Shown here piece by piece: positions 16,135 through 30,660 of a stretch of 64,000 nucleotides of DNA. The notes below the pieces were generated by a model, which saw only the letters and a list, made by a program, of their open reading frames with translations, had not been told where the DNA came from and searched no databases. The stretch is from Lutibacter sp. (GTDB lineage Bacteria > Bacteroidota > Bacteroidia > Flavobacteriales > Flavobacteriaceae): positions 62,001-126,000 of the forward strand of contig NZ_JAEINV010000010.1 in assembly GCF_016342705.1 (NCBI RefSeq). Reading direction: 5' to 3'. How positions within the stretch are numbered: the stretch's first letter is position 1; every line of letters starts with the position of its first letter. A program made the translations under genes and the position numbers.

Positions 16135-19100
16135 TGGAATTGGAGCAATTACAGGCGGCTATTAAAGCCCACGATTTAGAATTGGTTATTGGACTGGAAA
16201 CTCACGTTCGATTAAATACTAAAACCAAGTTATTTTGTTCTTGTCCAAATCAAGAAATTGAAACACCAAACCAAAACATTTGTTCGGTTTGTACTGGTCA
16301 AATGGGCGTTTTACCAGCATTAAATAAAGAAGCTATAACCAAAGCTATCTATTTTGGAAAAGCGGTAGATTCTTCATTTTCTAATGAAGTAATCTCTTGG
16401 GATAGAAAACATTACGAATATCCAGACAACCCGAAAAATATACAAATAACACAATATCATAATCCAATTATTCCGGACGGACAAGTTTCTTGTTACCGAA
16501 ATGATGGTTCTCAGTTTACTGTTAATTTAACGCAAGTTCATATAGAAGAAGATGCCGCCAAATTAATGCACGAGAAAAAAGTTTCGTTGGTAGATTTCAA
16601 CAAAGCCGGAGTTCCGCTTATTGAAATAGTAACTGAACCTTGCATTAGAAATATTGAAGATGCCTCTATTTACGCGCAATACATTCAACGTATAGTTCAA
16701 AACTTAGGAATTTCTGAAGCTAACCTAGAAAAAGGCGAATTTAAATCGGATGTTTCGGTTTCTCTCCGTAAAAAAAGAAGCTACGATTTAAATCCACGTA
16801 CAGAAATTAAAAACTTAAACTCTTTTAAGTTTATGGTGGAAGCTTTAAAAGAAGAAATTGAAAAACAGTTTAATTATTATATTGAACATAAAGAGTTTAG
16901 ACCTGATCAAACCACTGTTTTATGGGATGCCGATTTAAAGCAAACCAAAACAATGCGTAAAAAGGAGTTTGAAGCCGATTATCGTTTTATTTCAGAGCCA
17001 GATTTACCTTTTGTAAATATAAAAGACCTCATAAACACTATTAAGGTTGATAACAGCTCATTACCTTATGCAGTGGAATCCATTTTAATACAAGGTGGCG
17101 TTTTACCACAAGATGCTAAGTTTTTTACTGCAGATGCTGATCGTTCTAAAACGTTTATGGCGATAAATAATGTGCTAAAAGATCCTTCTTTTGTTGCCAA
17201 AACATTGGTAAATAATTTAAGCGCTGATGAATATTCAAAAATTAAAAATATTGAACATTTAATTGAAATTTTCCAATTATTTAAAGCTGAAAAAATTACA
17301 GTTGTATTGGTTCAAAATGCTATAACTTCTTATTTAAAAGATAGAACTTTTGATTACAATAAATACTTTGAAGAAAATACTATTTCAGATGCTCAAATTA
17401 AAAATGCTATTGATAAAGTAATTTCAGAAAACGAAGCAATCGCCAATGAAATTAAAGCAGGAAATAGTGGAAAATCAGGTATTTTAGTTGGGAAAATTAT
17501 TTCAATTATTGGAAAAGGCGCTTCAGGAAAAGTAATCAGAGAAGGTATTTTAGCTGCTTTAGGTGCTGATGAAATACAAGGCTCAAAAAATGAGCTTCAA
17601 AAATCAAAAATAGAAGGCGCAACTACTTCATCAAAAGAACAAGAAGAAGTATTGCCAGAAATTCCTATTGTAATAAAAGAAAATTATAGAACACATTTAA
17701 TTACTAGTTTAACTGAAGAAAATATCAACGATAAAATTTCTTTGGCAGGTTGGGTTTCTAGTGTTCGTGACCACGGAGAATTAATTTTTATTGACTTACG
17801 TGATTCAAGTACTGAAATTTTTCAAGTGCGATTAAGTAGAGAATCGTTTCCAAATTTAGATGAATTGGTAAAGTTAAAACCAGAATCTGTAATTATGGTT
17901 ACCGGAGTTGTAGTACAACGTAATGCCGATGATTACAATGCTGCTTTAAGAACTGGTGAAATTGAATTAGAAACTTCAGAATTAGAAATATTAAATCTTT
18001 CTAAAACATTGCCTTTTGAAATAAAAAGAGCCACAAAAACAAATGAAAATGTTCGTTTTCAATACAAGTTTTTAGATCATAGAAATGATGATGTTAGAAG
18101 AGTTATTGTAAACCGCCATAAGGTTATAAAATTATTACGTGACATTTTAGATGAAGAAAATTTCTTAGAAATTGAGACACCAATTTTAAGTGCCGGAACC
18201 GATGAAGGAGCACGTGAGTTTATTGTTCCAACACGTAAACAACCTGGTTTCTTTTATACCTTACCGCAAGCGCCTCAGCAATTTAAACAAATGTTAATGG
18301 TAAGTGGTTATGAAAAGTATTTTCAAATTGCACGTTGTTTTAGAGATGAAGATTCTCGTGGAGATCGTCAGCCAGAATTTACGCAATTAGATTTAGAAAT
18401 GGCTTTTGCCAGTATGCAACAAATTATAGATTTAAACACTAAAATGTTTAATGAAGTAGTGAAGAAAATATACGGCAACAAATGGATTTTACGTCCGTTT
18501 GAAGTAATTACTTACCAAGATGCTATGGACAAATACGGTTGTGACCGACCAGATTTACGTTTCGGATTACAATTACAAGACATTACAACTATTGTTAAAG
18601 ACACAACTTTTCAGGTATTTAGCAAACCAATTGAAGATGGCGGAATTGTAAAATGTATTAAAGTTTCTGCAAAAGAACAAGGAAGCAAACGCTTATCTAA
18701 AGGACAAATAGAAAATTTAACTTCTATTGCCCAACAACACGGTTTAGGTGGTTTGGCTTATATTATTGTAAATGAAGATGAATTACAATCGCCAATTATT
18801 AAATTTTTAGGTGAAGATATTGCAGCAGGAATTATAAAAGTTACCAATGCACAAATTGGTGATATTGTATTTTTCTCAGCAGCAGATTATGCAACTGCCA
18901 ATAAGGCTTTAGACGCTGTTCGTCAGGAATTAGGTAAAATATTACATTTAATAAATCCAAAGGAATTACGCCCAGCTTGGGTAATAGATTTTCCAATGTT
19001 TGAAAGAACTGATGAAGGAAGATGGACATTTACCCACAACCCTTTTTCTATGCCAGCTGTGTACGATTTAGAAAAACATATGAAAGGTATTGATGCTGAA

Positions 19101-19466
19101 ATTGGAACCATTATAGCCCAACAATACGATTTAATTTTAAACGGTTACGAAATTGGTGGAGGATCGGTTCGAGCACATAAATCTGAAATTTTAGAAGCAA
19201 CCTATAGAAATATGGGTTACAATAAAGAAGAAATGATTAAAAGTGTGGGAACTATGTACAAAGCTTTTCAATACGGAGCGCCGCCACACGGTGGAATTGC
19301 TTGGGGAGTTGACCGTTTAATGATGATTTTAGAGAAAAAAGCTTCTATTAGAGAAGTAATGGCTTTCCCAAAAACTGGAACTAGTGAAGATTTATTATTC
19401 GGAGCGCCATCGCTTTTATCTGATAAAAAGGTAGAAGAAATGAATGTGAAGATTATTAGAAAATAA
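16134..19466 (+). CDS. gatB-aspS: GatB-AspRS fusion: amidotransferase subunit B joined to aspartyl-tRNA synthetase
   Basis: One 1110-residue reading frame carries two complete enzymes. Residues 1 to about 485 are GatB, with the LVIGLETHVRL opening, zinc cysteines in LFCSC and CSVC, and a C-terminal YqeY-like tail (GKIISIIGKGASGKVIREG). A charged linker of about 30 residues follows. From about 520 comes a bacterial-type AspRS: OB-fold anticodon domain (AGWVSSVRDHGELIFIDLRD), motif 2 (ARCFRDEDSRGDRQPEFTQ), a GAD-type insert, and motif 3 (GGIAWGVDRLMMIL). His547 in RDHG is the residue type found in non-discriminating bacterial AspRS, which also charges tRNA(Asn). That fits a physical coupling of mischarging and amidation. 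Confidence 0.95.
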   Translation: MELEQLQAAIKAHDLELVIGLETHVRLNTKTKLFCSCPNQEIETPNQNICSVCTGQMGVLPALNKEAITKAIYFGKAVDSSFSNEVISWDRKHYEYPDNPKNIQITQYHNPIIPDGQVSCYRNDGSQFTVNLTQVHIEEDAAKLMHEKKVSLVDFNKAGVPLIEIVTEPCIRNIEDASIYAQYIQRIVQNLGISEANLEKGEFKSDVSVSLRKKRSYDLNPRTEIKNLNSFKFMVEALKEEIEKQFNYYIEHKEFRPDQTTVLWDADLKQTKTMRKKEFEADYRFISEPDLPFVNIKDLINTIKVDNSSLPYAVESILIQGGVLPQDAKFFTADADRSKTFMAINNVLKDPSFVAKTLVNNLSADEYSKIKNIEHLIEIFQLFKAEKITVVLVQNAITSYLKDRTFDYNKYFEENTISDAQIKNAIDKVISENEAIANEIKAGNSGKSGILVGKIISIIGKGASGKVIREGILAALGADEIQGSKNELQKSKIEGATTSSKEQEEVLPEIPIVIKENYRTHLITSLTEENINDKISLAGWVSSVRDHGELIFIDLRDSSTEIFQVRLSRESFPNLDELVKLKPESVIMVTGVVVQRNADDYNAALRTGEIELETSELEILNLSKTLPFEIKRATKTNENVRFQYKFLDHRNDDVRRVIVNRHKVIKLLRDILDEENFLEIETPILSAGTDEGAREFIVPTRKQPGFFYTLPQAPQQFKQMLMVSGYEKYFQIARCFRDEDSRGDRQPEFTQLDLEMAFASMQQIIDLNTKMFNEVVKKIYGNKWILRPFEVITYQDAMDKYGCDRPDLRFGLQLQDITTIVKDTTFQVFSKPIEDGGIVKCIKVSAKEQGSKRLSKGQIENLTSIAQQHGLGGLAYIIVNEDELQSPIIKFLGEDIAAGIIKVTNAQIGDIVFFSAADYATANKALDAVRQELGKILHLINPKELRPAWVIDFPMFERTDEGRWTFTHNPFSMPAVYDLEKHMKGIDAEIGTIIAQQYDLILNGYEIGGGSVRAHKSEILEATYRNMGYNKEEMIKSVGTMYKAFQYGAPPHGGIAWGVDRLMMILEKKASIREVMAFPKTGTSEDLLFGAPSLLSDKKVEEMNVKIIRK

Positions 19467-19475
19467 ATAAAATTT

Positions 19476-19613
19476 AAAAGAGGCCGTCTAAATAGTTGGT
19501 TTTGGTCAACCTGAACTTGTTTCAGGTTCTCATTCTGATGAATAATCAAGTATGTTAAGATTCTGAAACAAGTTAAAAATGAAGACTTTTAACTCTGTTT
19601 AGACAGCCGCTTT
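19476..19613. repeat. Long hairpin element containing an inverted REP-like pair
   Basis: Outer arms 19476-19492 and 19598-19613 (AGGCCGTCTAAA against TTTAGACAGCCGCT) enclose an inner inverted pair around AACTTGTTTCAG. The same organisation occurs at 29238-29373. It lies between the convergent gatB-aspS and TonB-receptor-like genes and could act as a terminator for both. Confidence 0.75.
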
Positions 19614-19615
19614 CT

Positions 19616-22279
19616 TTATAAATTATAGCCCACAGTAAACATTACAATTCTTGGTAAAATATATGTTTTTTGATCAGAAATTATATAGGATGAAAAGCTA
19701 TTTGAACTTTTATATTTTACCTTTAATAAATTTTGTGCATCTATTTTAAAACTCCAAGCACTGTCTTCATTTTTATAAGAAAGCGTTGTGTTTGCTAATT
19801 GGTACTTATTTTTTTGATTTGAAGTTTTATTAATGTAGTTATAATTTTCGTACTCAAAAGAAAAAATAAACCCTTTTAAAAAATCATAATCTATAGTTAA
19901 ATAAGGCTGATTGGTAACAAATTTTGATGTTTGATTACTCGATGTGTAATTACCAAAATCTTGTTTAAAACCTACTTCAACTGTTGGAAATTTATCAAAC
20001 AATGTTTTTGCTGACAAGTTATAGCCAACACTATTATTTTTATTTGTAACCACTTTAGTATCTATATTTTGAATATAGGACAACCTAGAAGCTTGTGTAT
20101 TGATTCCGTATTTTATTTTCTTTATTTTTTTATCAATAGTTACACTAAAATTTAATCGCTCCTCAGGATTATTTATAAGTATTGGTGAAATAAATTGATT
20201 GGTTTCTTCAAACTGAACAGTGTTTTGAATTCCTTTTACTTTTTTACTATAATTAATAGCACTAAACAACATTAACCCTCTGTACAAACTAAATCTGTTA
20301 TAATAAATACGAGCTGTGTGAAATAGTTCATTTTCTAAGTTTTCATTTCCTTTAAATACTGAATTGTACGAACGTAAATAAAAACGGTTTGCCAATTTTG
20401 ACGCATCTGAAAAGGCGGTTTTTAACTGATAATTTATTTTTATTTTTTTAGAGTTACTAAACTCTATTTTTGCTGAAAAATCTGGCAAAAGTACTGTTTT
20501 TTGATGATTTTCAGTTGTAACTTGTTGTGTTTCCCAATTATAATTGTGCAAAAAAGCACCTTGCTTTAATTCAAAAATACCTGCTTTAAATTTGTAATGA
20601 ACACCAACAAATAAATCGTTGAGCGTTAAATCTATAGCATTTCCAAAACCTGAGTTATCAAAACTGTTCACAGAACCATCCGCTAACAACTGACTATCTT
20701 CCGTTACAAAAGAGTCTTTAGTATAGTTATTTCCAATAGTGGTATATATGTGATTAAAATTATTGAGCACCCAATAATGCTTAAAAATAGCATTAATTGT
20801 TGTAGTAGTTGTTTCTTTTAACTGTTTAATACTATACTGATCCGATTCTTCTACGGGAATTAAACCTTGTAAAATTGGTTGATTTGTTTCCCATAAAGTC
20901 ATTGGATTATTTTCATCTAAAACAGCATCAACAGCAAATGAAAAGGAATGCTTTTGGTTCATTTTTTTATGCCATTCTATATTTTGATTTAGATACTTTG
21001 AAACAGCTTCATTCTTTTCTGAAATATGGTTTTGTTCATTTTCAATAACTGATAAAATGGTGTTATTTTTATTATTATCGGTTTTTTTGAACTGTGATTT
21101 AAAATACCATTGTTCATTTTTATTGGGTGCATATTCAATGTTTAACTTCCCAATACCCAGTATATTTCTTGTCGCAGAATTATGGGCTGTTTCTTCGGTA
21201 AATGCAGTATATTGATTGATGGATTCTTGATATGTTTCATTTTTTGAATGTGAAAAAATAGCATATCCAGAAATGTCTAATTTACTATTCACTACTTTGG
21301 TAATGTTTAATGCGCCAAATTTATTGTTACTAGTTACAATATCTTGGGTTTCTAAAAATTGAGAAAAATCACTAGCTGAAATATTGTAAATTGAACCATC
21401 GCTTTTTAAAAATGCACTAACGCCACCTTGAAAATTCATATAATCTTTAAACGTAAAAGTTTTCTCTCCTGTATTATTTAAATTTCCAATAAAATTAACA
21501 TTGGTTTTTGGACTGTAATAGAACAAATTACTGTGGGTTCGGAAAAAATCTTTATTTCCTTTTCCAACTTCAATATCGCCAAAGGCAAATTGCTTTTTAT
21601 CTTTTTTTAAGAGTATGTTCATTGCTACATCTTCAGAATCTGACACGTTTTTTAAAAAGGCAATTTCATTATAATTATCAATTACCTGAACTTTATCAAT
21701 AGCATTTGCAGGAATATTTTCAACGGCTAGTTTGGTGCCTCCATTAAAAAACTTTTTACCTTCCACTAACATTTTGGTTACTTTTTTACCTTGTACTGTA
21801 ACACTTCCATTTTTATCTACCTCAACACCTGGCAGTTTTTTAAGTACATTTTTTAGTTTACGTTCATCGCCAGTAACAAATTTACTGGTATTGTAGGTTA
21901 TAGTATCTTCTTTTACAGTAACTGGCAACTCAATAATAACTTCTTGCAATTGATTTGGTGCATCTTTTAAAACAATGTTTTTTAGTGCATTTTCGGAAGC
22001 TACCAATTTAAAATTAGTGGTTTTAAAACCCATATAACTCACAGAAATAGTATAGGTATCATTTTTTGTGAGTTCTAATTTGTACAAACCAGCATCATCT
22101 GTAATTGCAAATTGTAAATTTTTTGTAAGGTCTGCAGGTTTGGCAATAACATTGGCATAGCTTAGCGGATTTTGTAAACTATCGTTTACACTTCCTTTTA
22201 AAGTAATGGTTTGGGCGTTTGAATACAACGCCCCAACAAGAACACAACATATTATAGCAATTTGTTTTTTTAAAATCAT
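19616..22279 (-). CDS. TonB-dependent-receptor-like outer membrane beta-barrel protein with carboxypeptidase-like regulatory domain
   Basis: An 887-residue exported protein. Its signal peptide ends ...LYSNAQ; then comes a carboxypeptidase-D-like Ig domain (about 25-105: GSVNDSLQNPLSYANVIA, VSYMGFKTTNFKL). Next is a plug-like region (about 130-225: LKKLPGVEVDKNGSVTVQGK, ENIPANAIDKVQVIDNYNE). The rest is a long beta-barrel of the outer-membrane OMP_b-brl type ending in an aromatic residue pattern (IVMFTVGYNL). Such proteins lack an obvious TonB box and their substrates are unknown. Genes of this kind often sit beside GLPGLI genes in Bacteroidetes, and here it is the last gene of the peptide/GLPGLI array, 57 bp after a GLPGLI stop. 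Confidence 0.85.
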   Translation of the reverse strand: MILKKQIAIICCVLVGALYSNAQTITLKGSVNDSLQNPLSYANVIAKPADLTKNLQFAITDDAGLYKLELTKNDTYTISVSYMGFKTTNFKLVASENALKNIVLKDAPNQLQEVIIELPVTVKEDTITYNTSKFVTGDERKLKNVLKKLPGVEVDKNGSVTVQGKKVTKMLVEGKKFFNGGTKLAVENIPANAIDKVQVIDNYNEIAFLKNVSDSEDVAMNILLKKDKKQFAFGDIEVGKGNKDFFRTHSNLFYYSPKTNVNFIGNLNNTGEKTFTFKDYMNFQGGVSAFLKSDGSIYNISASDFSQFLETQDIVTSNNKFGALNITKVVNSKLDISGYAIFSHSKNETYQESINQYTAFTEETAHNSATRNILGIGKLNIEYAPNKNEQWYFKSQFKKTDNNKNNTILSVIENEQNHISEKNEAVSKYLNQNIEWHKKMNQKHSFSFAVDAVLDENNPMTLWETNQPILQGLIPVEESDQYSIKQLKETTTTTINAIFKHYWVLNNFNHIYTTIGNNYTKDSFVTEDSQLLADGSVNSFDNSGFGNAIDLTLNDLFVGVHYKFKAGIFELKQGAFLHNYNWETQQVTTENHQKTVLLPDFSAKIEFSNSKKIKINYQLKTAFSDASKLANRFYLRSYNSVFKGNENLENELFHTARIYYNRFSLYRGLMLFSAINYSKKVKGIQNTVQFEETNQFISPILINNPEERLNFSVTIDKKIKKIKYGINTQASRLSYIQNIDTKVVTNKNNSVGYNLSAKTLFDKFPTVEVGFKQDFGNYTSSNQTSKFVTNQPYLTIDYDFLKGFIFSFEYENYNYINKTSNQKNKYQLANTTLSYKNEDSAWSFKIDAQNLLKVKYKSSNSFSSYIISDQKTYILPRIVMFTVGYNL

Positions 22280-22336
22280 TTAAACCTATTTAATGTTTTC
22301 CGAAAAGATGCTTCATTAATTTCAAGATTTTTGGCT

Positions 22337-23089
22337 TTAATTTCGTTTTATACTCTTTAAAAAATCATACGCCCTTTTTTTGCTTATTTCATTGTATTCA
22401 TCCTTTGTTACCTCTTTCCCTTTAGTTGGCTTTATTATTTTAGTGTCTTTTTTGGTATTTAACTCGATTGTTGAGGCATAAAAACGAACGTTTTGATATT
22501 GTATTTCTATAATTAAACCCGGTAAACCACCAAAACCTACAGGACCAAAACCAAATGGAATTTCAGGTGCATACCAAGCTTCAACAGGATGATTAAATAT
22601 ACCTACATTATTTTCAACAACTTTTGTAGTGAGCGCCTTATAACATTTATAGTTACCTATTAATTTACTCTCACTGGTAAGTTGCCATTTTATGGAGTCT
22701 AAGTTTGAAACTATATTAAAAATTTCTCCTGACATCTCAACACTTCTTATAGCCTCTTTTGTTTTTAAATTCACATAAAAATCACCACTTGCATCTCCTG
22801 CACCTACAATAAATTTTAGTGATTTTTCATCTGTTTCAATTGCTAAATTTTCTTCAAATGAAAATAATGATTCATTATTATTAATAATCAGATTGTACCG
22901 TAAACTATTGCTACTCTCTTTTAAACCATCTTGTATGGTATTCAATATTTTTTGCTTCTCTGGATTGCTATTATTTATTGGGTAGTAGTTTATTATATCT
23001 TTTTTATACATAACAAAAACTTTCCCATTCTGAGAAAAACTTAGTATTGTAAATAATAATAGTGTTGATAAAAGAATTATTTTTTTCAT
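22337..23089 (-). CDS. GLPGLI family protein, copy 1
   Basis: A 250-residue exported protein of the Bacteroidetes GLPGLI family; function not established. It has a signal peptide (ILLSTLLLFTILSFSQN) and the family core: IGNYKCYKALTTKV with the conserved Cys, VEAWYAPEIPFGFGPVGF, and the name-giving GGLPGLIIEI. The C-terminal TKGKEVTKDEYNEI tail is shared by the paralogues. It lies 12 bp after the second GLPGLI gene without a peptide gene between them, and 57 bp before the receptor-like gene, so these three form a tight unit. Confidence 0.9.
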   Translation of the reverse strand: MKKIILLSTLLLFTILSFSQNGKVFVMYKKDIINYYPINNSNPEKQKILNTIQDGLKESSNSLRYNLIINNNESLFSFEENLAIETDEKSLKFIVGAGDASGDFYVNLKTKEAIRSVEMSGEIFNIVSNLDSIKWQLTSESKLIGNYKCYKALTTKVVENNVGIFNHPVEAWYAPEIPFGFGPVGFGGLPGLIIEIQYQNVRFYASTIELNTKKDTKIIKPTKGKEVTKDEYNEISKKRAYDFLKSIKRN

Positions 23090-23101
23090 AAAATCTATTT
23101 T

Positions 23102-23830
23102 TTATCTCTTCATAAAACCACCCATCATTTCCCTAATTCTTTCTTTATATTTTTCTTCTGAAATAATTCTACCTTTAAATAGTTTAATTACAGGTTTCTC
23201 TTTAGGATACAATTCAATTTTATCTGCGTAAAAAGTAAAATGTGTATCCTTCAACTCAAGTATCAATCCAGGTAAACTATTAAATTGTTTGGGTCCAAAC
23301 GGAACTGAAATTTCAGGTGTATACCACGCTACTATTTCAAATGTATATTCTCCTGTTGAATTTGTATTTGTTACACTTGTAGTAGCCTTATAACATTTAT
23401 AGTTTTTTATAAACTTTTTTTCCTGTGAAAGTACCCATTTTATTTTTGAGGGTTGTGATTCGATTAAAAAATCTTCTCCATTAACCTTTCTATATTGTAT
23501 ATCATTTTCTAAATCAGAAAAATAACTACCATTACTTATTAATTTATCTGCAAATACTCCTGCGTTTAAGTTAATATCACTATCCATTTTATTGCTGACA
23601 GAAAAAAATGATGTTTGGTTGAAAAACTCCAATTTAAATATTACTTCTGCCATATATTCATTTATCCCATTAAAATGATCCTTTACAATTTGTTTCGTTT
23701 TTACACCATTTAATACTTCATTTGGATTAGAACTATGTTTATAATAAGCAAAGCCATAAACATCTTTGCTTTGGGAATAACTATTTATTATTTGAAAAAG
23801 TAGGAATGCAATTACTATAATTTTTTTCAT
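23102..23830 (-). CDS. GLPGLI family protein, copy 2 (SLPGLI variant)
   Basis: A 242-residue exported GLPGLI-family protein with signal peptide ...LFQIINSYSQS. The core reads FIKNYKCYKATTSV, VAWYTPEISVPFGPKQF and NSLPGLILEL, so the first Gly of the motif is Ser. The C-terminus has the shared KGRIISEEKYKERI tail. It follows the first small peptide gene after a 38-bp hairpin and precedes copy 1 by 12 bp. Divergence from copy 1 is high outside the core, so the duplication is old compared with the repeated leaders. Confidence 0.88.
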   Translation of the reverse strand: MKKIIVIAFLLFQIINSYSQSKDVYGFAYYKHSSNPNEVLNGVKTKQIVKDHFNGINEYMAEVIFKLEFFNQTSFFSVSNKMDSDINLNAGVFADKLISNGSYFSDLENDIQYRKVNGEDFLIESQPSKIKWVLSQEKKFIKNYKCYKATTSVTNTNSTGEYTFEIVAWYTPEISVPFGPKQFNSLPGLILELKDTHFTFYADKIELYPKEKPVIKLFKGRIISEEKYKERIREMMGGFMKR

Positions 23831-23861
23831 TTTAATTTAATTTATTTATCTAAAATATTAT

Positions 23862-23899
23862 GAAGGAGAAAATTTGATGATCAAATTTTCTCCTTTAAT
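23862..23899 (-). terminator. Stem-loop between peptide 1 and GLPGLI copy 2
   Basis: On the minus strand, a 15-16 bp stem AAGGAGAAAATTTGA/TCAAATTTTCTCCTT with a three-base loop follows the peptide stop. Only a weak T-rich tail follows, so partial termination or an RNA-stability element is as likely as a full terminator. Confidence 0.6.
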
Positions 23900-23915
23900 A
23901 AAATTCTAATTGAAT

Positions 23916-24239
23916 TTATCCCATATTACCTGCTTCAACAATTTCTTGATAGGTATATCCCTCACAAAGAGCATAAGCTACATTCATATTAAAAAATATT
24001 TGTTCATCACTCATACCAGCTATATGGGAAGATTCTCCAACCGCTAAGGCTTGTTCTTCGCAAAATCTATCTGATTCAGCTATTTGGCTTAGCTTTAGAT
24101 TTTTGAAATTCTCAACATTTGAATTAGCATTCACCATTGATAAACTTGCAAAAACAAATACTACACTTAAAATTATTTTTTTACTCACCATTTTTAAATT
24201 TACAACTTTGTGTTCGTGATTTTTCTTTGAAAAGTTCAT
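23916..24239 (-). CDS. Secreted two-cysteine small protein, peptide 1 of the array
   Basis: A 107-residue predicted secreted protein. The signal segment KKIILSVVFVFASLSMVNA is nearly identical to that of peptides 2 and 3, with an ANA/VNA-type signal peptidase I site. The mature part, about 70 residues, is acidic and helical with exactly two Cys (FCEEQAL ... YALCEGY) spaced Cx31C. Outside the signal it is almost unrelated to its paralogues. Translation may start at ATG 24239, which has the same upstream context as the other peptides, giving a 17-codon N-terminal extension (MNFSKKNHEHKVVNLK), or at the internal MVSKK. GLPGLI copy 2 follows. Function unknown. Confidence 0.75.
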   Translation of the reverse strand: MNFSKKNHEHKVVNLKMVSKKIILSVVFVFASLSMVNANSNVENFKNLKLSQIAESDRFCEEQALAVGESSHIAGMSDEQIFFNMNVAYALCEGYTYQEIVEAGNMG

Positions 24240-24265
24240 TTTATTAAAATTTAAATTTGTTAATT

Positions 24266-24440
24266 GCACATAAATGTGCCTTTTTATTTTGTTCACACTG
24301 CGAGGAGTTTTAGTTTTGCAACACTTCCTTTGTTTGTATATATTAGCTATGTCATAGTCAATAGTTTTAGGTTAAACATTTTATTAGCGTATTGTGTTCT
24401 TAAAATTTTTACCAGCAGAGGATTTTTATTTTATTATTGA
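24266..24440 (-). repeat. Cassette leader, copy A
   Basis: Repeated leader upstream of peptide 1. It holds the short hairpin GCACA-taaa-TGTGC (24266-24279), a degenerate version of the 13-bp long-range inverted repeat (24326-24338 with 24411-24422), and the palindrome CTATGTCATAG (24347-24357). It fills the gap between GLPGLI copy 3 and peptide 1. Copy A is the most diverged of the four. Confidence 0.75.
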
Positions 24441-24452
24441 ATACAATTATTT

Positions 24453-25196
24453 TTAATATTCCTCTCTTTCTAATTGATCCTTTTTTTTATATAATATTCT
24501 ATAAATGGAATCATATTCAATTTTATTGACCTCCTTACCTGTTCTAGGTTCATCTATCTCAATTTTATTTATTGAATTTAAATTTAGCTTTTCTAAATAA
24601 TATGTAAAGATGTCTACTTTAAGTACAACTATTAACCCTGGTAAACCTCCACTGCCCATTGGTCCAGTGTTAACAGGAATTTCAGGAGTATACCAAGCTT
24701 CTATAATTTTATTATTCCTCTTCGTTGAATCAACCGATATGGCCTTATAACAAATATATTTATCCATTCTAATTTTTTCATTTGTTAATTTCCAATTATA
24801 ATCATCAAAGTTTTTAATAATTCTAAAGACCTCCCCTAAACTTTCCTTTTGTTGAATGACTTTTTTTGAAATCAGATTTGAATAAATTTTTCCTGTTATT
24901 TTTGCTTTAACACTTGCCATATCAATTTTAGAAGAACTCACATTTAAATTGGATTCATAATAAAAAAGCGAGCTATAATTGTTGAAGATTAATTTAAATT
25001 TAGTACTACTTGGACCACTCGAATCATCTATAGTATTCTTTAAAATATTAATATCTTTTGCAGTACTATTTTCAATTTTATTGAAATCAATAGTTGTTTT
25101 TAAACCATAAATAGCAACACCATTTATGTTTTGTGAGCATATTTCATTGAATATTAAAAATAAAATTATTGATAAAATCTTTATTTTATTAAACAT
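24453..25196 (-). CDS. GLPGLI family protein, copy 3
   Basis: A 247-residue exported GLPGLI-family protein (signal ...LIFNEICSQN). Core elements are MDKYICYKAISVDS with the conserved Cys, IIEAWYTPEIPVNTGPMGS and GGLPGLIVVL; the usual Phe-Gly-Pro is Thr-Gly-Pro here. The C-terminal region has TGKEVNKIEYDSI followed by a charged KKKDQLERE tail. It starts 24 bp after peptide 2, with no stem-loop between, unlike the other pairs, so this pair is probably the most tightly co-expressed. Confidence 0.88.
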   Translation of the reverse strand: MFNKIKILSIILFLIFNEICSQNINGVAIYGLKTTIDFNKIENSTAKDINILKNTIDDSSGPSSTKFKLIFNNYSSLFYYESNLNVSSSKIDMASVKAKITGKIYSNLISKKVIQQKESLGEVFRIIKNFDDYNWKLTNEKIRMDKYICYKAISVDSTKRNNKIIEAWYTPEIPVNTGPMGSGGLPGLIVVLKVDIFTYYLEKLNLNSINKIEIDEPRTGKEVNKIEYDSIYRILYKKKDQLEREEY

Positions 25197-25220
25197 ACCA
25201 GTCCTCTATTTATTAAGTAT

Positions 25221-25517
25221 TTATATCCACCCCAAATCATTAGCTATTTCACATAACTGCTTTAGTGAATCAGCAGTTTCATTAATAAGCTCTTCATCAT
25301 CACTTACTTCTTTTAATTTTGCTTTTATCCAAATTTTAAAAGCCCAACATTTCGCACTTTCAATCCCATTTAAATCATAATTAATATATTCAATCATATT
25401 TAATTGATTTATTTGGAATTGTAATTTCATTGGATTTGGAATCTCCTTTATATTTTCCGCATTAACCATTGCAAAACTTGCAAAAACAAATACTATACTT
25501 AAAATTATTTTTTTCAT
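25221..25517 (-). CDS. Secreted two-cysteine small protein, peptide 2 of the array
   Basis: A 98-residue predicted secreted protein: MKKIILSIVFVFASFAMVNA signal, then a 78-residue mature part with two Cys (SAKCWAF ... KQLCEIA) spaced Cx31C, as in peptides 1 and 3. The segment between is predicted helical with a charged turn (KEVSDDEEL), compatible with a disulfide-pinned helical hairpin. It lacks the 17-codon extension seen in peptides 1 and 3. It is headed by the 480-bp leader copy B and followed 24 bp later by GLPGLI copy 3. No recognised family. Confidence 0.75.
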   Translation of the reverse strand: MKKIILSIVFVFASFAMVNAENIKEIPNPMKLQFQINQLNMIEYINYDLNGIESAKCWAFKIWIKAKLKEVSDDEELINETADSLKQLCEIANDLGWI

Positions 25518-25993
25518 TTTATTAAAATTTAAATTAGTTAATAGCGCATAATTGCGCTTTAATATTTTGTTAGTTCTGCGTGGTGTATTACTTTTGCAAC
25601 ACTTCCTCTGTTTGTATTAATTAGCTATGTCATAGTTGGTTGGTTTTAGGTTAAACATTTTATTAGCGTATTGTGTTCTTAAAATTTTACAAACAGAGGA
25701 TTTTTATTTTACTCCGCTTAATAACAATAGATAAATTACCTTTTTTAAGCTTTATTAAAACTTAAAGGCAGCAAAAAAAATCTCATTACGAGTTTATTCT
25801 TTTTTCTTAAAAATATGTAGTAAATAGCAATTTACAGCAGTATTCTTTTTCATATAACAATTTTGTATTCGGTTTTAAATCTTTCTTCAGGTTAAATGTA
25901 TAAAAAAAAAAAAAAGACTTGGAAAAATATTTTCACTAATTATCTAAATTTAAAATCAGTTTAAATAATAATATTTATCTTATTTTTAAAAAA
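25518..25993 (-). repeat. Cassette leader, long copy B (about 480 bp, no gene)
   Basis: This gene-free stretch is a near-identical copy of 28363-28845. From the peptide start outward it holds the hairpin GCGCA-taat-TGCGC (25544-25557), the 13-bp inverted repeat (25604-25616 with 25688-25700) and the palindrome CTATGTCATAG (25625-25635). Further out are a 19-codon mini-ORF (25853 down to 25794, MKKNTAVNCYLLHIF...), a possible -7 box TACATTTA (25893-25900), and an A14 tract (25902-25915). Homology with copy D runs to the region just before GLPGLI copy 4, so a duplicated array head has been inserted inside the array. Confidence 0.85.
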
Positions 25994-25995
25994 AG

Positions 25996-26742
25996 TTAAT
26001 TTCTTCTACTTTTATCAATTTCTTTATATTTATTTAATAATTGTTCATGAGTTATAATTTTACCTTTTTCAGGCTTTTTAATTTTAGGCTCATTTTTAGA
26101 ATTTAATTTTATTGAAGTTGCATAATATGTTATACCTCCTTCTGTTAATTCTAAAATAAGACCTGGCAAACCTGCATAATATTTTGGACCAAAACCATTT
26201 GAAATTTGAGGAGTATACCAAGCTTCAACTACTATCCTTTTTTTAGGGTTTACTTTTATTGCTGTTGCTTTAAAACAAGTATAAACTCCTATTTGTTTGG
26301 ATTCGTTTGATAATTTCCAACCTATTTCATTTAAAATTCTTTTTATAATCATTCCTTTATCAAAAGAGCCTAATTCCTCTAATGAGACACTATCTTTCAG
26401 GCTTGTGTAAAATTTACTATCACTAGCCGTAAAAATCTTAGCATAATCTATACTGGCATAATTATTTTCTGAACCCAAAATTTCTTTCCAAAAATAATTA
26501 GAGCTATCTTTATTAAAAACCAAATTAAATTCAAATGAATCTTGGTATTCCTTTAAGCTTTCATTTATATTATAAAGGGTTTCAGCTTCTCCTGGTTTTC
26601 CAAATTGTTTTAATGAATCAATATTAAACATATCTGTAGCTCTATATTTATAAACTACTTCACCTGTAAATTTCTGAGCATACATTGAGTTGTTAATTGT
26701 GATTAACAATATTGTCAAATAAATGTATTTGATTAAATCCAT
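25996..26742 (-). CDS. GLPGLI family protein, copy 4
   Basis: A 248-residue exported GLPGLI-family protein with a signal segment ILLITINNSMYAQK. It shows IGVYTCFKATAIKV (conserved Cys), VVEAWYTPQISNGFGPKYY and AGLPGLILEL, then the shared C-terminal KGKIITHEQL tail. It begins TGEVVYKYRATD, a typical opening strand for the family. It lies 69 bp downstream of peptide 3 with a strong stem-loop between them. Its stop is directly at the end of leader copy B. Confidence 0.9.
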   Translation of the reverse strand: MDLIKYIYLTILLITINNSMYAQKFTGEVVYKYRATDMFNIDSLKQFGKPGEAETLYNINESLKEYQDSFEFNLVFNKDSSNYFWKEILGSENNYASIDYAKIFTASDSKFYTSLKDSVSLEELGSFDKGMIIKRILNEIGWKLSNESKQIGVYTCFKATAIKVNPKKRIVVEAWYTPQISNGFGPKYYAGLPGLILELTEGGITYYATSIKLNSKNEPKIKKPEKGKIITHEQLLNKYKEIDKSRRN

Positions 26743-26762
26743 ATCTATTGTATTTAAAAGTT

Positions 26763-26792
26763 AAGCCACAGATTTTTGCAAAACTGTGGCTT
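26763..26792 (-). terminator. Stem-loop between peptide 3 and GLPGLI copy 4
   Basis: AAGCCACAG and CTGTGGCTT pair perfectly, with an AT loop of 12 bases. The minus-strand tail after the stem is T-rich but not a clean T run, suggesting an attenuator that lowers expression of the downstream GLPGLI gene relative to the peptide. Confidence 0.65.
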
Positions 26793-26811
26793 TGTTAATA
26801 TTAAAAATCAT

Positions 26812-27111
26812 TTATTGTGGCTCACTTTCTTCCAAACACAATTCTTCAGCTCGAATAGCTATTTTAATTGCCTCAATAAAATCACCCGTTGTTTCGTATG
26901 CCGCATCACGAGTAAATTCGTACACTCTATCGCAAAAATCATCATAAACAACAATTCTTTCAATTTGCTTATTGATAACATCATTCTTTATATTTTCCGC
27001 ATTCACCATTGCTAAACTTGCAAAAACAAATACTATACTTAAAATTATTTTTTTACTCACCATTTTTAAATTTACAACTTTGTGTTCGTGATTTTTCTTT
27101 GAAAAGTTCAT
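26812..27111 (-). CDS. Secreted two-cysteine small protein, peptide 3 of the array
   Basis: A 99-residue predicted secreted protein. After a 17-codon extension (MNFSKKNHEHKVVNLK, shared with peptide 1) comes the signal SKKIILSIVFVFASLAMVNA. The 61-residue mature part is acidic with two Cys (YDDFCDRVY ... AEELCLEES) spaced Cx31C. Both Cys positions and a Leu just before the second match peptides 1 and 2, but little else does. The 5' region is near-identical in DNA to peptide 1, so the sharp fall in similarity at the mature boundary is real. GLPGLI copy 4 follows. Confidence 0.75.
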   Translation of the reverse strand: MNFSKKNHEHKVVNLKMVSKKIILSIVFVFASLAMVNAENIKNDVINKQIERIVVYDDFCDRVYEFTRDAAYETTGDFIEAIKIAIRAEELCLEESEPQ

Positions 27112-27338
27112 TTTATTAAAATTTAAATTTGTTAGTAACGCATAATTGTGCTTTTATATTTTGTTTGTACTGCGAGGTGTATTACTTTTGCAACACTTTC
27201 CTCTGTTTGTATTAATTAGCTATGTCATAGTTGGTTGGTTTTAGGTTAAACATTTTATTAGCGTATTGTGTTCTTAAAATTTTACAAACAGAGGATTTTT
27301 ATTTTATTCAACTCTTGTTTATTTATTCCTACTCAAAT
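27112..27338 (-). repeat. Cassette leader, copy C
   Basis: Leader upstream of peptide 3, following GLPGLI copy 5. It contains the weaker short hairpin ACGCA-taat-TGTGC (27138-27151), the perfect 13-bp inverted repeat (27199-27211 with 27283-27295) and CTATGTCATAG (27220-27230). The outer half present in copies B and D, with mini-ORF and poly-A tract, is absent. Confidence 0.8.
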
Positions 27339-28073
27339 CTATTTTTTAAAACCATTAAACATTCTCTTACTTAAATCATTGAATTCCTTTTGAGTTATAC
27401 TTCTACCGCGCATGGGTTCGTTTATTTCAAGATGATCAAATATTTCAATACTTTTTAGTTTAAACAAAATATTTCCTTCTTCAAGTTGAACTATAAGACC
27501 AGGAAGCCCATTGTATTCCTTTGGTCCATAATTAAAAGGTAATTCCTTTGAATACCAAGCTACTACTAATTGTTCTTCGACTCCTCTTGAACCTTCAATA
27601 TATTTTTTTGTTGTAGCTTTATAACAATTATAAATCCCTATCTTCTTAACATCTTTATAAATTATCCATTCAAATTTAGGAACTTCTAACAAAAAATCTT
27701 GACCAAAAGAGTTCTTACTTTGTATAGTTTTTTTATTATTGAAATAATATGATCCTTTAAACCTGCCGATTCTTTTCAGAATTTTTATACTATTCTTATT
27801 AATTTCAAGTTGGTTTGGAAGATAAAACAAGGAATTTTTTTTATCAAAATCTAAAACAAAATTTACAGATTCAGAATAAGAAAGGCTTTTTTTGTAATCA
27901 GCTCTCATTTTAAATAACATTTGCTTTTTTTTGGAATCCATTGAACTTTCATCAATTTTAGAAATACTATCATTATTGTAAAAATGGATATTATATAATG
28001 CTTTGTATGAATTTTGGCTATTTACACTTTTACTTATTAAAAATAAAAGAAATAATATTTTAATATATTTCAT
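27339..28073 (-). CDS. GLPGLI family protein, copy 5
   Basis: A 244-residue exported GLPGLI-family protein (signal ...LFLLFLISKSVNSQN), the first of the five in transcription order. It has IGIYNCYKATTKKY with the conserved Cys, VVAWYSKELPFNYGPKEY and NGLPGLIVQL, and the C-terminal MRGRSITQKEFNDL tail. It is lysine-rich compared with the others (for example KIDESSMDSKKKQMLF). It follows peptide 4 after a stem-loop at a 79-bp spacing. Confidence 0.9.
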   Translation of the reverse strand: MKYIKILFLLFLISKSVNSQNSYKALYNIHFYNNDSISKIDESSMDSKKKQMLFKMRADYKKSLSYSESVNFVLDFDKKNSLFYLPNQLEINKNSIKILKRIGRFKGSYYFNNKKTIQSKNSFGQDFLLEVPKFEWIIYKDVKKIGIYNCYKATTKKYIEGSRGVEEQLVVAWYSKELPFNYGPKEYNGLPGLIVQLEEGNILFKLKSIEIFDHLEINEPMRGRSITQKEFNDLSKRMFNGFKK

Positions 28074-28086
28074 TGTAATAAAGATT

Positions 28087-28111
28087 ATCCCTCCATAATT
28101 TATTTGGAGGG
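28087..28111 (-). terminator. Stem-loop between peptide 4 and GLPGLI copy 5
   Basis: TCCCTCCA and TGGAGGGA pair, with a 9-base AT loop. As with the other two stem-loops in the array, it separates a peptide gene from its GLPGLI partner and is followed by only a weak T-rich tail. Confidence 0.6.
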
Positions 28112-28152
28112 AATTAAATTATATGGTATATTAATTGATTAATTTTTTCAAC

Positions 28153-28362
28153 TTAATTACCCATACATTCTTCATAGGCTTCTTCAAAGACATAATATTC
28201 TTCCTCATATGATAACCAACCTGTTCCATACCAAGTTCTGGAATCTTCATTAGCCATATAAACGGCTATTTCGGCTGACTCATAACAATCTACACTATTT
28301 TGAGCTGATCCAATCGTAGTAACCCCAAGAACAAAAACTAGTCCTAATATTATTTTTTTCAT
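28153..28362 (-). CDS. Secreted two-cysteine small protein, peptide 4 of the array
   Basis: A 69-residue predicted secreted protein, the first gene of the array. Its signal MKKIILGLVFVLGVTTIGSAQ differs from the other three. The mature part is only 49 residues, strongly acidic and Tyr/Trp-rich, with two Cys (SVDCYES ... YEECMGN) spaced Cx39C rather than Cx31C. It therefore shares layout, not sequence, with peptides 1-3. The same leader elements precede it (copy D). Function unknown; size and secretion would allow a toxin, signal or binding role, none of which is shown. Confidence 0.7.
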   Translation of the reverse strand: MKKIILGLVFVLGVTTIGSAQNSVDCYESAEIAVYMANEDSRTWYGTGWLSYEEEYYVFEEAYEECMGN

Positions 28363-28845
28363 TTTAGTAAAATTTAAATTTGTTAGTAGCGCATAAATGC
28401 GCTTTAATATTTTGTTAGTACTTCGAGGTGTATTACTTTTGCAACACTTTCCTCTGTTTGTATTAATTAGCTATGTCATAGTTGGTTGGTTTTAGGTTAA
28501 ACATTTTATTAGCGTATTGTGTTCTTAAAATTTTACAAACAGAGGATTTTTATTTTACTCCGCTTAATAACAATAGATAAATTACCTTTTTTAAGCTTTA
28601 TTAAAACTTAAAGGCAGCAAAAAAAATCTCATTACGAGTTTATTCTTTTTTCTTAAAAATATGTAGTAAATAGCAATTTACAGCAGTATTCTTTTTCATA
28701 TAACAATTTTGTATTCGGTTTTAAATCTTTCTTCAGGTTAAATGTATAAAAAAAAAAAAAAAGACTTGGCAAAATAATTTTATTATTAAGCCATATTTAA
28801 AATCAGTTTAAATAAGAACATTATTTATCCTATTTTTACACCAAA
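28363..28845 (-). repeat. Cassette leader, long copy D and array head (about 480 bp, no gene)
   Basis: Gene-free stretch between peptide 4 and the divergent DUF423 gene. It holds the hairpin GCGCA-taaa-TGCGC (28389-28402), the 13-bp inverted repeat (28450-28462 with 28534-28546), CTATGTCATAG (28471-28481), the 19-codon mini-ORF (28699 down to 28640), a possible minus-strand -7 box TACATTTA (28739-28746), and an A15 tract (28748-28762). Copy B has A14 at the same place. The promoter of the DUF423 gene probably lies at its upper end. Confidence 0.85.
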
Positions 28846-28853
28846 TTAATTTT

Positions 28854-29234
28854 ATGTCACAATTCACATTATTATTTGCCAGTATTTTAGGAGGTTTAGC
28901 CGTTATTTTTGGCGCATTTGGAGCGCACTCGTTGAAAAAACTCTTAAATGAAGATCAATTAAAAAGTTTTGAAACTGCTGTAAAATACCAACTATATCAT
29001 GCTATTGTTTTATTAGTTATTGGGTTTAATTTAAGTTTAGAAACTTCACTAGAAAAATATATGGTGTACAGTTTTATAATTGGGATTTTGCTGTTTTCAT
29101 TTAGTATTTATGGCTTGGTTATTTCTTCAGCAAACAATAAAAAATTAAAATTTTTAGGCCCAATTACGCCACTTGGAGGGTTGTTTTTGGTGTGTGGTTG
29201 GATTTTGTTATGTTTTTCAATATTGAATTTATAA
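28854..29234 (+). CDS. DUF423 family membrane protein
   Basis: A 126-residue inner-membrane protein with four predicted helices. The opening ILGGLAVIFGAFGAHSLKKLL and the segment FETAVKYQLYHAIVLLVIG are the signature of DUF423 (YwdK/YgdD-like). The family has no established function. A TATTTTTA box just upstream (28831-28838) is a possible -7 element. It is divergent from the peptide array and followed by the hairpin element at 29238-29373. Confidence 0.9.
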   Translation: MSQFTLLFASILGGLAVIFGAFGAHSLKKLLNEDQLKSFETAVKYQLYHAIVLLVIGFNLSLETSLEKYMVYSFIIGILLFSFSIYGLVISSANNKKLKFLGPITPLGGLFLVCGWILLCFSILNL

Positions 29235-29237
29235 CAT

Positions 29238-29373
29238 AAAAGAGGCTGTATAGAAAGTGAAGTTTTCGTCAACCTGAACTTATTTCAGGTTCTCATAATG
29301 ATTGAAAATCAGAATATTGAGATTTTGAAACAAGTTCAGAATGACGGCTTTTAACTCTTTTTATACAGCCTCT
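29238..29373. repeat. Long hairpin element, second copy
   Basis: Outer arms (AGAGGCTGTATA at left, TATACAGCCTCT at right) enclose an inner inverted pair (CCTGAACTTATTTCAGG against TTTTGAAACAAGTTCAGAA). Organisation matches 19476-19613. It lies between the convergent DUF423 and porin genes and may terminate both. Confidence 0.8.
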
Positions 29374-29409
29374 AATAAAAATCTACTAACTAAAGTTTTT
29401 GTCTATAAT

Positions 29410-30660
29410 TTATTTTGAAGAAAATAATTTAGGGTTAAAAGTAAACATAATCCAACTCCAAGAACTGTTCTCATCTTTATCACCTCCTTTTAATACTTCC
29501 ATAGAATTTGTTCCGTACATTTTAGAATAACCTGCGCTAAATGCAATATTATTAGCTACTTTATAACCAATTGTAAAATCAATTTCAGTTCCTAATTTAC
29601 TATCCATTTTAGTACCTCCACTATAAATATCTGCAGCAGAAGAGAAGAAATGAGGAATAACCTTTGCTGAAAACTTGTCTTTATTATAACCAACAAAAGC
29701 ATTAATATCCACTAAACCAACAGAACCTCCGTGGTTTCCAACATAAAAATAATCCATCCAACCATTAAATTTGTGGTTTGTACCATATAACGGATTGAAG
29801 GATTTTACGTCTAAACTTGAATCATTCATATCTTTACCGGATAAATATTCAGCACCTAATCCAAAAGAAAATAATTCTGAAGCTTTATAACTTAAATTTC
29901 CTGAAAAGTTTGATGCAGAAACATCTTTATCTGAAATTTTTCCAGTTTGAACATATATAGAAAAATCTGAAGCAAATTTTCCTTCTTTATACGTAATATA
30001 TGTACCCAAAGTTTGAGAATAATCTACTTTTTGATCTCCAGAATTTAAATATTCAACACCATTATTTAAAGCTAATAAGCTTAAACCTACTTTATCAATT
30101 GCTGTGTGATAATACGCATATTGAAATGTTTTGTAACCAGCAATATTGCTATATAAATTATCTACACCAGCTTGGCTATCTGCATTTAAAGCAAATCCTA
30201 CATCTAAATTACTTTTTTCTGAAGTCTTAAATTTGACAATCATAGCATCATGGCTTCTAGCTTGTTGTGCCCAACCTACATTTCCAAAAATTCTACTGTC
30301 ATCATATACAATTTCTTGACGACCAAATTTTAATGAAAATTTATCAGATAATAAAGCCTCAGCCCAAGCTTCGTGTAACATAGTTGCGTTGTCATCAGCT
30401 CCTAAAGTGCTAATATCTCCCCAAACTCTTACGTTTTGTAAAGAAACTCCTAACTTAATTTTGTCTTGACTAAAATTAAAATTTAAACGTGAACGTTGTG
30501 AAATAAAGTTTGCTCCATCTGCATTTGTAGCTGATAAGGATCCATAGCCATGTTTGTTCTCAAAACGTGGTCTAATTTCAGCAGAAAGATCAAATTGTTG
30601 TGCATAATTTGTTGTTACCATTAATGTAACTAAAAGTGTAAAATAAAAATACTTTCTCAT
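29410..30660 (-). CDS. Alginate-export-like outer membrane beta-barrel porin
   Basis: A 416-residue exported protein: signal ...LMVTTNYAQQ, then a beta-barrel of the alginate export family. Typical elements are FDLSAEIRPRFENKHGYG, SQRSRLNFNFSQDKIKLGVSLQNVRVWGD and KFGRQEIVYDDSRIFGNVGWAQQ. Members form outer-membrane channels for anionic or polysaccharide substrates, but in Bacteroidetes the solute is usually unknown. It is separated from norF by 110 bp containing its own possible promoter, so it may not belong to the nor operon. A TATTTTCG box lies at 30721-30728. Confidence 0.8.
   Translation of the reverse strand: MRKYFYFTLLVTLMVTTNYAQQFDLSAEIRPRFENKHGYGSLSATNADGANFISQRSRLNFNFSQDKIKLGVSLQNVRVWGDISTLGADDNATMLHEAWAEALLSDKFSLKFGRQEIVYDDSRIFGNVGWAQQARSHDAMIVKFKTSEKSNLDVGFALNADSQAGVDNLYSNIAGYKTFQYAYYHTAIDKVGLSLLALNNGVEYLNSGDQKVDYSQTLGTYITYKEGKFASDFSIYVQTGKISDKDVSASNFSGNLSYKASELFSFGLGAEYLSGKDMNDSSLDVKSFNPLYGTNHKFNGWMDYFYVGNHGGSVGLVDINAFVGYNKDKFSAKVIPHFFSSAADIYSGGTKMDSKLGTEIDFTIGYKVANNIAFSAGYSKMYGTNSMEVLKGGDKDENSSWSWIMFTFNPKLFSSK

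Follow-up and report, generated by a model that had tools for sequence, protein, structure and literature searches.

What could a bacterium do with small secreted peptides that are each encoded just ahead of a GLPGLI protein, in an array that ends in an outer-membrane receptor gene? This question is raised by a locus of Lutibacter (Flavobacteriaceae), contained in a 64,000-nucleotide stretch of DNA that we call the window. Four peptide-GLPGLI cassettes, one extra GLPGLI gene and one outer-membrane receptor gene follow one another there, all on the minus strand; in fact, the genes, coordinates and order claimed by an original prediction from the DNA letters all agree with the list of open reading frames (ORFs). 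As transcribed, they are:

28153 to 28362, minus strand: secreted peptide, first transcribed, 69 amino acids (aa), two cysteines; its L126 relative is 81% identical in the mature part, with a ratio of non-synonymous to synonymous change (dN/dS) of 0.10
27339 to 28073, minus strand: GLPGLI protein, partner of the peptide at 28153-28362 (TIGR01200, 131.8 bits)
26812 to 27111, minus strand: secreted peptide, 99 aa including an N-terminal extension, two cysteines (from the ORF list)
25996 to 26742, minus strand: GLPGLI protein, partner of the peptide at 26812-27111 (AlphaFold2 model m18b07740c649)
25221 to 25517, minus strand: secreted peptide, 98 aa, two cysteines (dN/dS 0.26 with its L119 relative)
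24453 to 25196, minus strand: GLPGLI protein, partner of the peptide at 25221-25517 (TIGR01200, 133.3 bits)
23916 to 24239, minus strand: secreted peptide, 107 aa from the ATG, two cysteines (the ORF list begins at GTG 24296)
23102 to 23830, minus strand: GLPGLI protein, partner of the peptide at 23916-24239 (TIGR01200, 138.1 bits)
22337 to 23089, minus strand: GLPGLI protein without a peptide of its own (TIGR01200, 155.1 bits)
19616 to 22279, minus strand: shared TonB-dependent-transporter-like protein with a CarboxypepD_reg N-terminal domain (PF13715, PF13620; AlphaFold2 model)

This layout is not due to chance, because a 46-nt block upstream of the window peptides is 100% identical in all four, a 211-base DNA query is matched in 23 of 38 Lutibacter genomes (in four of these via 24 to 36 leader bases only), and dN/dS ranges from 0.10 to 0.54 in nine hand-picked pairs of related peptides between species. 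The last result also argues that the peptides are translated and under purifying selection. The best conserved part of the array is the block before each peptide, which reads as a predicted RNA gene of ~105 nt on the opposite strand.

We propose that the array may be a modular cell-envelope system that handles peptides. Each cassette would yield one acidic, cysteine-paired peptide with a Sec-type leader, and each GLPGLI protein, a basic half-barrel, would act as a periplasmic carrier that binds its own peptide and hands it to the operon's single TonB-dependent-transporter-like protein. Transport would be outward, to the surface or the medium, more likely than inward. Cassettes would be gained, lost and swapped at a common site, and the conserved RNA and leader region would provide a constant frame. 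What we computed is the layout, the RNA family, co-divergence, purifying selection, opposite charges and predicted folds; the whole carrier-transporter reading is offered tentatively.

Peptides, GLPGLI partners and the shared transporter

We counted 34 distinct peptides, identical ones once. Their mature parts are hardly alike (mean distance 0.89). All 34 are acidic (mean charge -8.6), and 31 have an even number of cysteines: two in 23 peptides, 11 of which space them by 31 residues, and four in eight. In the window, the four peptides had been described as secreted, as having two cysteines and as headed by the same leader. Each does begin with a leader resembling a signal peptide, judged by eye and with a crude rule, and each mature part contains two cysteines; the leader is near-exact in three of them but has diverged in the first transcribed one (MKKIILGLVFVLGVTTIGSAQ). 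The ORF caller, the signal-peptide rule and the mature-peptide cut are crude home-made rules. In L143, the array of Lutibacter maritimus, the ORF without a leader is wrongly cut; L137 is truncated by a contig end. The peptides at 26812-27111 and 23916-24239, and some in L124 and L132, have a conserved N-terminal extension of ~18 residues (MNFSKKNHEHK...) ahead of the signal peptide. GLPGLI leaders end before Gln, three of the four peptide leaders apparently before Asn or Glu (by eye); cleavage before Gln is the Q-rule of Bacteroidetes (PMC5837995).

That peptide and GLPGLI protein work as pairs, as originally suggested, is supported by co-divergence and by charge. In the 31 of 44 parsed copies that have both, peptide and GLPGLI distances are correlated (Mantel r 0.54, 0 of 2000 permutations), whereas peptide and RNA distances are not (r -0.02, 1120 of 2000); GLPGLI and RNA distances give r 0.19 (220 of 2000). 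The mean GLPGLI distance is 0.35 for the 12 related peptide pairs versus 0.79 for the rest, and nearest neighbours agree in 17 of 31 cassettes. The partner GLPGLI proteins have a mean charge of +6.0 and are positive in 28 of 31 cases; the corresponding figures are +1.4 and 66 of 127 for the GLPGLI proteins of L009-L086, and other proteins of the Lutibacter loci average -1.6 (n=54). The more acidic the peptide, the more basic its partner (rho -0.46 over 31 cassettes; -0.61 over 19 clusters, 15 of 5000 permutations). In other genera, 10 of 11 peptides are negative and 11 of 11 GLPGLI proteins positive.

Could these genes simply travel together, with no physical partnership between their products and with regulatory DNA as the upstream block? 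Linkage between adjacent genes does yield correlation, and the graded charge relation was not repeated in the 11 other-genera pairs (rho +0.40, p 0.22). However, the equally close RNA is uncorrelated, the opposition of charges is missing in 14 pairs with another small secreted protein (from Winogradskyella and others; means -2.1 and -3.3), and strand-specific folding, covariation and a promoter, described below, indicate an RNA. Linkage alone thus seems quite improbable to us. Because of the co-divergence, the opposite charges and the cup-like fold, each GLPGLI protein probably binds its own peptide physically.

What, then, are the GLPGLI proteins? The original prediction called them a known family without assigned function. 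All five of the window score 118.9 to 155.1 bits with TIGR01200 (NCBIfam cut-off 50) and exceed the family cut-off of PF09697 (Porph_ging). The genome has six GLPGLI genes by TIGR01200; the sixth, on contig C14, is followed by a receptor gene, lacks a peptide and stands next to a pair of two-component-like genes (by eye). Within the coverage of our literature searches, which misses most subscription-journal papers, the accessible parts of the papers list GLPGLI genes as regulated and mention no function or peptide partner, and no papers on PF09697, TIGR01200 or Porph_ging were found; in Riemerella, PhoP controls GLPGLI genes (PMC9603813).

A half-barrel is the predicted fold of the GLPGLI proteins. 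It resembles the bowl domain of PNGase F-II, with LolA and RseB as more remote likenesses. The orphan bowl-like domain at the N terminus of these PNGases (PDB 4r4z and 7zgn) appears to be a GLPGLI-type half-barrel. RseB and MucB are also among the fold matches, one of them solved in complex with a MucA peptide region. At the sequence level, the five proteins had no match to the LolA/LolB Pfam families at E <= 1, and PDB sequence searches with one GLPGLI protein and the receptor gave no match. Among the roles first suggested for these pairs, peptide binding fits best, given the half-barrel fold; antagonism with immunity has no positive evidence here.

The gene at the end of the array was rightly described as receptor-like. 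Its product matches the CarboxypepD_reg families PF13715 (2.6e-12) and PF13620 (1.9e-9), both over cut-off, and its AlphaFold2 model (mean predicted local distance difference test 79.2, predicted template modelling score 0.68) matches Cir, FhuA and BtuB, with HasR also among the matches; strands were not counted, and the Pfam Plug domain had no match at E <= 1. We predict from this model that it is a TonB-dependent transporter. The case for outward transport consists of the export leaders and the precedent of Oar, a Myxococcus transporter, nothing else, and it makes this direction possible but uncertain. Oar secretes a protease, and does so also without its CarboxypepD_reg domain (PMC6434023). 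The dispensability of this domain weighs against the carrier-transporter reading and has lowered our confidence in it.

The same fold is best known for import. The released peptides might instead bind a nutrient (a metal, haem or a protein) and be taken up again by the transporter, much as the haemophore HasA is by its receptor; HasR is in the matches, and acidic cysteine peptides could bind metals. But the peptides hardly share sequence, with no conserved ligand residues beyond the cysteine pair (by eye), and we regard such scavenging as improbable.

A structured RNA divergent from the peptides

The original prediction did not notice what the conserved block upstream of each peptide is. By all signs, it is an RNA gene on the other strand, present in four copies in the window, which are listed here with a small palindrome:

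28425 to 28552, plus strand: predicted structured RNA gene and promoter, copy 1, RNA proper from ~28446 (covariance model R1, 144.7 bits)
27174 to 27301, plus strand: predicted structured RNA gene and promoter, copy 2 (R1, 144.7 bits)
25580 to 25706, plus strand: predicted structured RNA gene and promoter, copy 3 (R1, 138.2 bits)
24302 to 24428, plus strand: predicted structured RNA gene and promoter, copy 4, whose promoter variant TAGTTTTG retains TAnnTTTG (R1, 126.1 bits)
28389 to 28402, minus strand: small palindrome (GCGC...GCGC) located between the promoter of the RNA and the start of the peptide (by eye in a 33-copy alignment, unscored)

We aligned 32 Lutibacter copies of a 122-131 nt stretch ending ~62 nt before the peptide start. 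On the RNA strand, their fold is a three-way junction of 32 pairs (-17.5 kcal/mol); on the peptide strand, 6 pairs form (-4.8 kcal/mol). Taken singly, the window copy at 27192-27306 has a minimum free energy of -31.7 kcal/mol (z -6.4), its reverse strand -17.8 (z -3.2). In the closing stem, 15 one-sided changes preserve pairing as G-U on the RNA strand and would be A-C on the other, with the exception of one cell (L133) that favours the other strand. Overall, 97.8% of the cells are paired and six pairs have changed on both sides; 0 of 500 shuffles match either value.

A second model, R2, was built from 45 copies. In the 45-copy alignment, 23 of 35 pairs have both-sided changes, versus 6.8 in shuffles. 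In 21 rows from other genera, unused in building R2 yet found with it, the count is 28 of 35, where shuffles give 18.2 and slid controls 10 to 17; it includes 10 of 12 pairs in stem 1 and 7 of 7 in stem 2, and stem 3 is weaker (65% of cells paired). Alignments A3 and A6 were fitted to the model structure, and the rows of A6 were found via R2, so that these pair counts lean towards the structure; A1, a plain MAFFT alignment, is free of this bias, although its counted structure came from that same alignment.

A promoter can be recognized as well. Directly before the stem, TAnnTTTG occurs on the RNA strand of 40 of 44 copies, and in 29 of the 44 there is a TTG exactly 19 bases further upstream; variants including TAACTTTG retain TAnnTTTG. 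In Flavobacterium psychrophilum, the main sigma factor has this motif as its -7 box (PMC9723704). A T run follows the closing stem in most alignment rows. On the peptide strand, TAnnTTTG occurs between RNA and ATG in 0 of 44 copies (a 62-nt stretch was scanned for the four copies with no ORF in reach). In several other copies, one-arm changes of the small palindrome are mirrored on the other arm (by eye). Hairpins resembling terminators lie between peptide and partner gene, for example at 28089-28111, ~26767-26797 and ~23866-23895 (by eye, unscored), which suggests, from the sequence, that peptide mRNA may be more abundant than carrier mRNA.

We thus predict that the divergent ~105-nt element is an RNA gene. 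Rfam gave five matches in window positions 19000-29500 at E <= 5, none on the RNA and none at gathering score; nine further RNA loci had no match at gathering score, so by covariance model the RNA matches neither Flavo-1 nor other Rfam RNAs. The flavobacterial small-RNA literature within our coverage, including the accessible part of PMC9723704, does not mention such a locus.

What could the RNA act on? A complementarity to the start codon, first seen by eye, did not hold up. In 27 of 28 cassettes, the duplex energy with the cassette's own peptide start did not surpass that of 120 controls; L122 is the exception (2 of 120 controls). GLPGLI starts (46) and receptor starts (20), with 70 controls each, were not better than controls either: for receptor starts, a mean of 0.64 of the 70 controls bind as well, with 2 of 20 starts in the best tenth. 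These tests used simple energies; if the peptide mRNA were longer, it would run antisense to the RNA. A regulatory role is nonetheless rather likely in our judgement, and most likely the RNA is a multi-copy regulator linking such surface operons.

Range of the RNA, its neighbours and cassette turnover

How far do RNA and cassettes extend? R1 finds 39 copies in 19 of 38 Lutibacter genomes and, in a family sample of 397 genomes, copies in five non-Lutibacter genomes. In the same sample, R2 finds the RNA in 11 genomes of nine genera including Lutibacter, two of which (g8, g153) are supported only by matches at E 1e-4 to 5e-4; searches inside three of these genera gave 2 of 12, 8 of 40 and 6 of 17 genomes. 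In a class-wide sample of 395 genomes, the RNA was found in the window's own genome and in one other of the same family. The family-wide searches and the class-wide one scored just 8 candidates per genome.

In total there are 64 copies, of which 61 are readable and three are unreadable at contig ends. For 45 of the 61, the divergent neighbour is a small secreted peptide with at least two cysteines; for two it is such a peptide with fewer, for eight a larger secreted protein or lipoprotein and for four an ORF without a called leader, and two have no ORF in reach. A GLPGLI match lies close behind (starting within 500 nt of the end of the first ORF) in 44 of 61, a count that is slightly low since L134 is labelled GLPGLI-less though another parse finds one. 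The association with peptides is not built in, because the RNA models contain no coding sequence; the first copies were found beside peptides. The peptides divergent from the RNA in L190, L192 and L201 look, we presume, like the NVEALA type, and in L190 and L192 the next gene is lipoprotein-like, presumably propeller-type, and not GLPGLI; no literature on NVEALA peptides was found within our coverage. Because its neighbours range this widely, we consider the RNA general to secreted-protein operons, with peptide plus GLPGLI as the commonest.

The converse does not hold. With R2, the RNA was found at 80 GLPGLI loci only in L007 (twice) and L008, plus a chance-level match in L052. The gene after the 135 GLPGLI genes of these loci is another GLPGLI gene in 51 cases and a receptor homologue in 59; otherwise it lies on the opposite strand (15), is something else (9) or is cut off by a contig end (1). 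These counts suggest that GLPGLI and transporter are the core and the peptides additions. A small secreted ORF lies upstream of 19 of the 135 versus 1 of 106 other secreted genes (crude rule); 16 of the 19 belong to one family of ~120 residues (by eye), and two or more cysteines occur in only two, both from Lutibacter. The original prediction looked to such a survey for a general pairing, and it is half borne out: relatives do retain the peptides, with purifying selection acting on them, but elsewhere GLPGLI genes mostly lack such a peptide, which indicates that regular pairing with cysteine peptides belongs mainly to RNA-bearing loci and not to GLPGLI genes generally.

In L185 and L188, response-regulator-like genes (by eye) stand on the other side of the RNA, at a distance of 140-240 nt. 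Could the peptides be pheromones or envelope signals, with GLPGLI as an RseB-like sensor, a transporter that relays and the RNA as output or control? These genes would suit such a scheme, as would the two-component-like pair (by eye) beside the second GLPGLI-receptor pair, the PhoP control in Riemerella and the RseB/MucB fold matches, one of them in complex with a MucA peptide region. But a fold alone is no proof of function, and no regulator ORF is evident inside the array, no systematic search having been made elsewhere; signalling is fairly unlikely.

Cassettes come and go at one site. The array lies between a DUF423-like gene and an AspS/GatB gene (names by eye) in the window, L143, L117 and L128; L123, L125, L132 and L134 show only the DUF423-like flank. 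By comparison of 14 of the fetched loci, eight Lutibacter genomes thus have the site in common. Their content varies: the window has four RNA copies with five GLPGLI genes, L143 two with four, and L128 one of each. Some genomes have additional copies at other locations, and further copies in some (e.g. L118, L124, L127, L138, L139) are unplaced relative to the flanks. Two cassettes of the window are 100% identical over 300 nt (25603-25902 versus 28449-28748), extending past the RNA gene upstream, which points to recent exchange, gene conversion or duplication. The nearest named relative found is Lutibacter maritimus (L007), at 86% for one GLPGLI protein.

Do the peptides attack? As narrow-spectrum toxins against related bacteria, they would have GLPGLI as periplasmic immunity and the receptor as exporter or target. 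A common site with a variable number of cassettes is what toxin-immunity cassettes would show, and hypervariable mature parts under a more constant leader, in tight partner pairs, fit as well. However, all 34 peptides are acidic (10 of 11 negative in other genera), unlike cationic bacteriocins; their mature parts are under purifying selection in the nine chosen pairs; phage and defence libraries gave only weak matches (E 0.006 and 0.0097); and there are extra GLPGLI genes and GLPGLI-receptor pairs without peptides. Antagonism is therefore unlikely.

Some features of the site stand apart. At window positions 16134-19466, a single 1110-aa ORF that fuses GatB-like and AspS-like sequence (by eye) flanks the array, and its AspS part also does so in L143, L117 and L128. 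A 113-nt repeat, 83% identical, lies on both sides (19499-19611 and 29262-29373); with 46 genome matches listed, it is a common interspersed element and not specific to the array. Decaying copies occur among L131, L118 and L123:10426, where a transposase-like ORF (by eye) replaces the peptide, the peptide ORF is gone or a cysteine is lost. Regarding mobile elements, exact matching of one RNA core pattern found none in viral contigs, and one RNA copy had no match to plasmids at E 1e-5.

Comparison with known systems

We can name no known system with this combination, although each protein fold is known by itself. That it amounts to a Gram-negative peptide system with dedicated carriers, a shared TonB-dependent exporter, cassette exchange and a new RNA family that also serves other secreted-protein operons is a possibility of which we are rather doubtful. 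With the array comes a candidate structured RNA family that Rfam does not contain. Should the pairs bind, they would form a naturally occurring collection of peptides and carriers that are matched and can be swapped, and the receptor would perhaps be one more TonB-dependent transporter that works outward.

In type I toxin-antitoxin systems of the istR/tisB type, an RNA diverges from a small peptide gene, as does the array RNA. They differ in that the array peptides have export leaders, and pairing of the RNA with the peptide mRNA start of its own cassette exceeds controls only in L122. In Bacteroides, the small RNA DonS diverges from an outer-membrane transporter operon, and FopS, with 14 paralogues and a canonical sigma-ABfr promoter, acts on transporter operons and represses SusC translation (PMC11697453). 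The array RNA is alike as a predicted small RNA divergent from an operon with an outer-membrane transporter gene; the genes are different (homology was compared through Rfam only), and no pairing with receptor starts was found.

On the protein side, Oar resembles the array receptor in its CarboxypepD_reg N-terminal domain and transporter fold; it has a Pfam Plug match and a TonB box (PMC6434023), a Plug match that the receptor lacks at E <= 1. The half-barrels of LolA/LolB, which carry lipoproteins, and of RseB/MucB differ in that no Pfam match connects them to the array, where an acidic peptide would be the ligand. At the 80 sampled loci, it is common to find GLPGLI genes, frequently in tandem, ahead of a gene for a transporter-like protein, and this is what the array shares with its family at large. 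Finally, the bowl-like N-terminal domain of PNGase is described as a unique structure with no function assigned (PMC9522356). Both PNGase F-II and the PNGase of B. massiliensis carry it fused to a glycanase, whereas in GLPGLI proteins it stands alone. Thus, a family named only by its motif gains a testable function and a fold link to this orphan domain.

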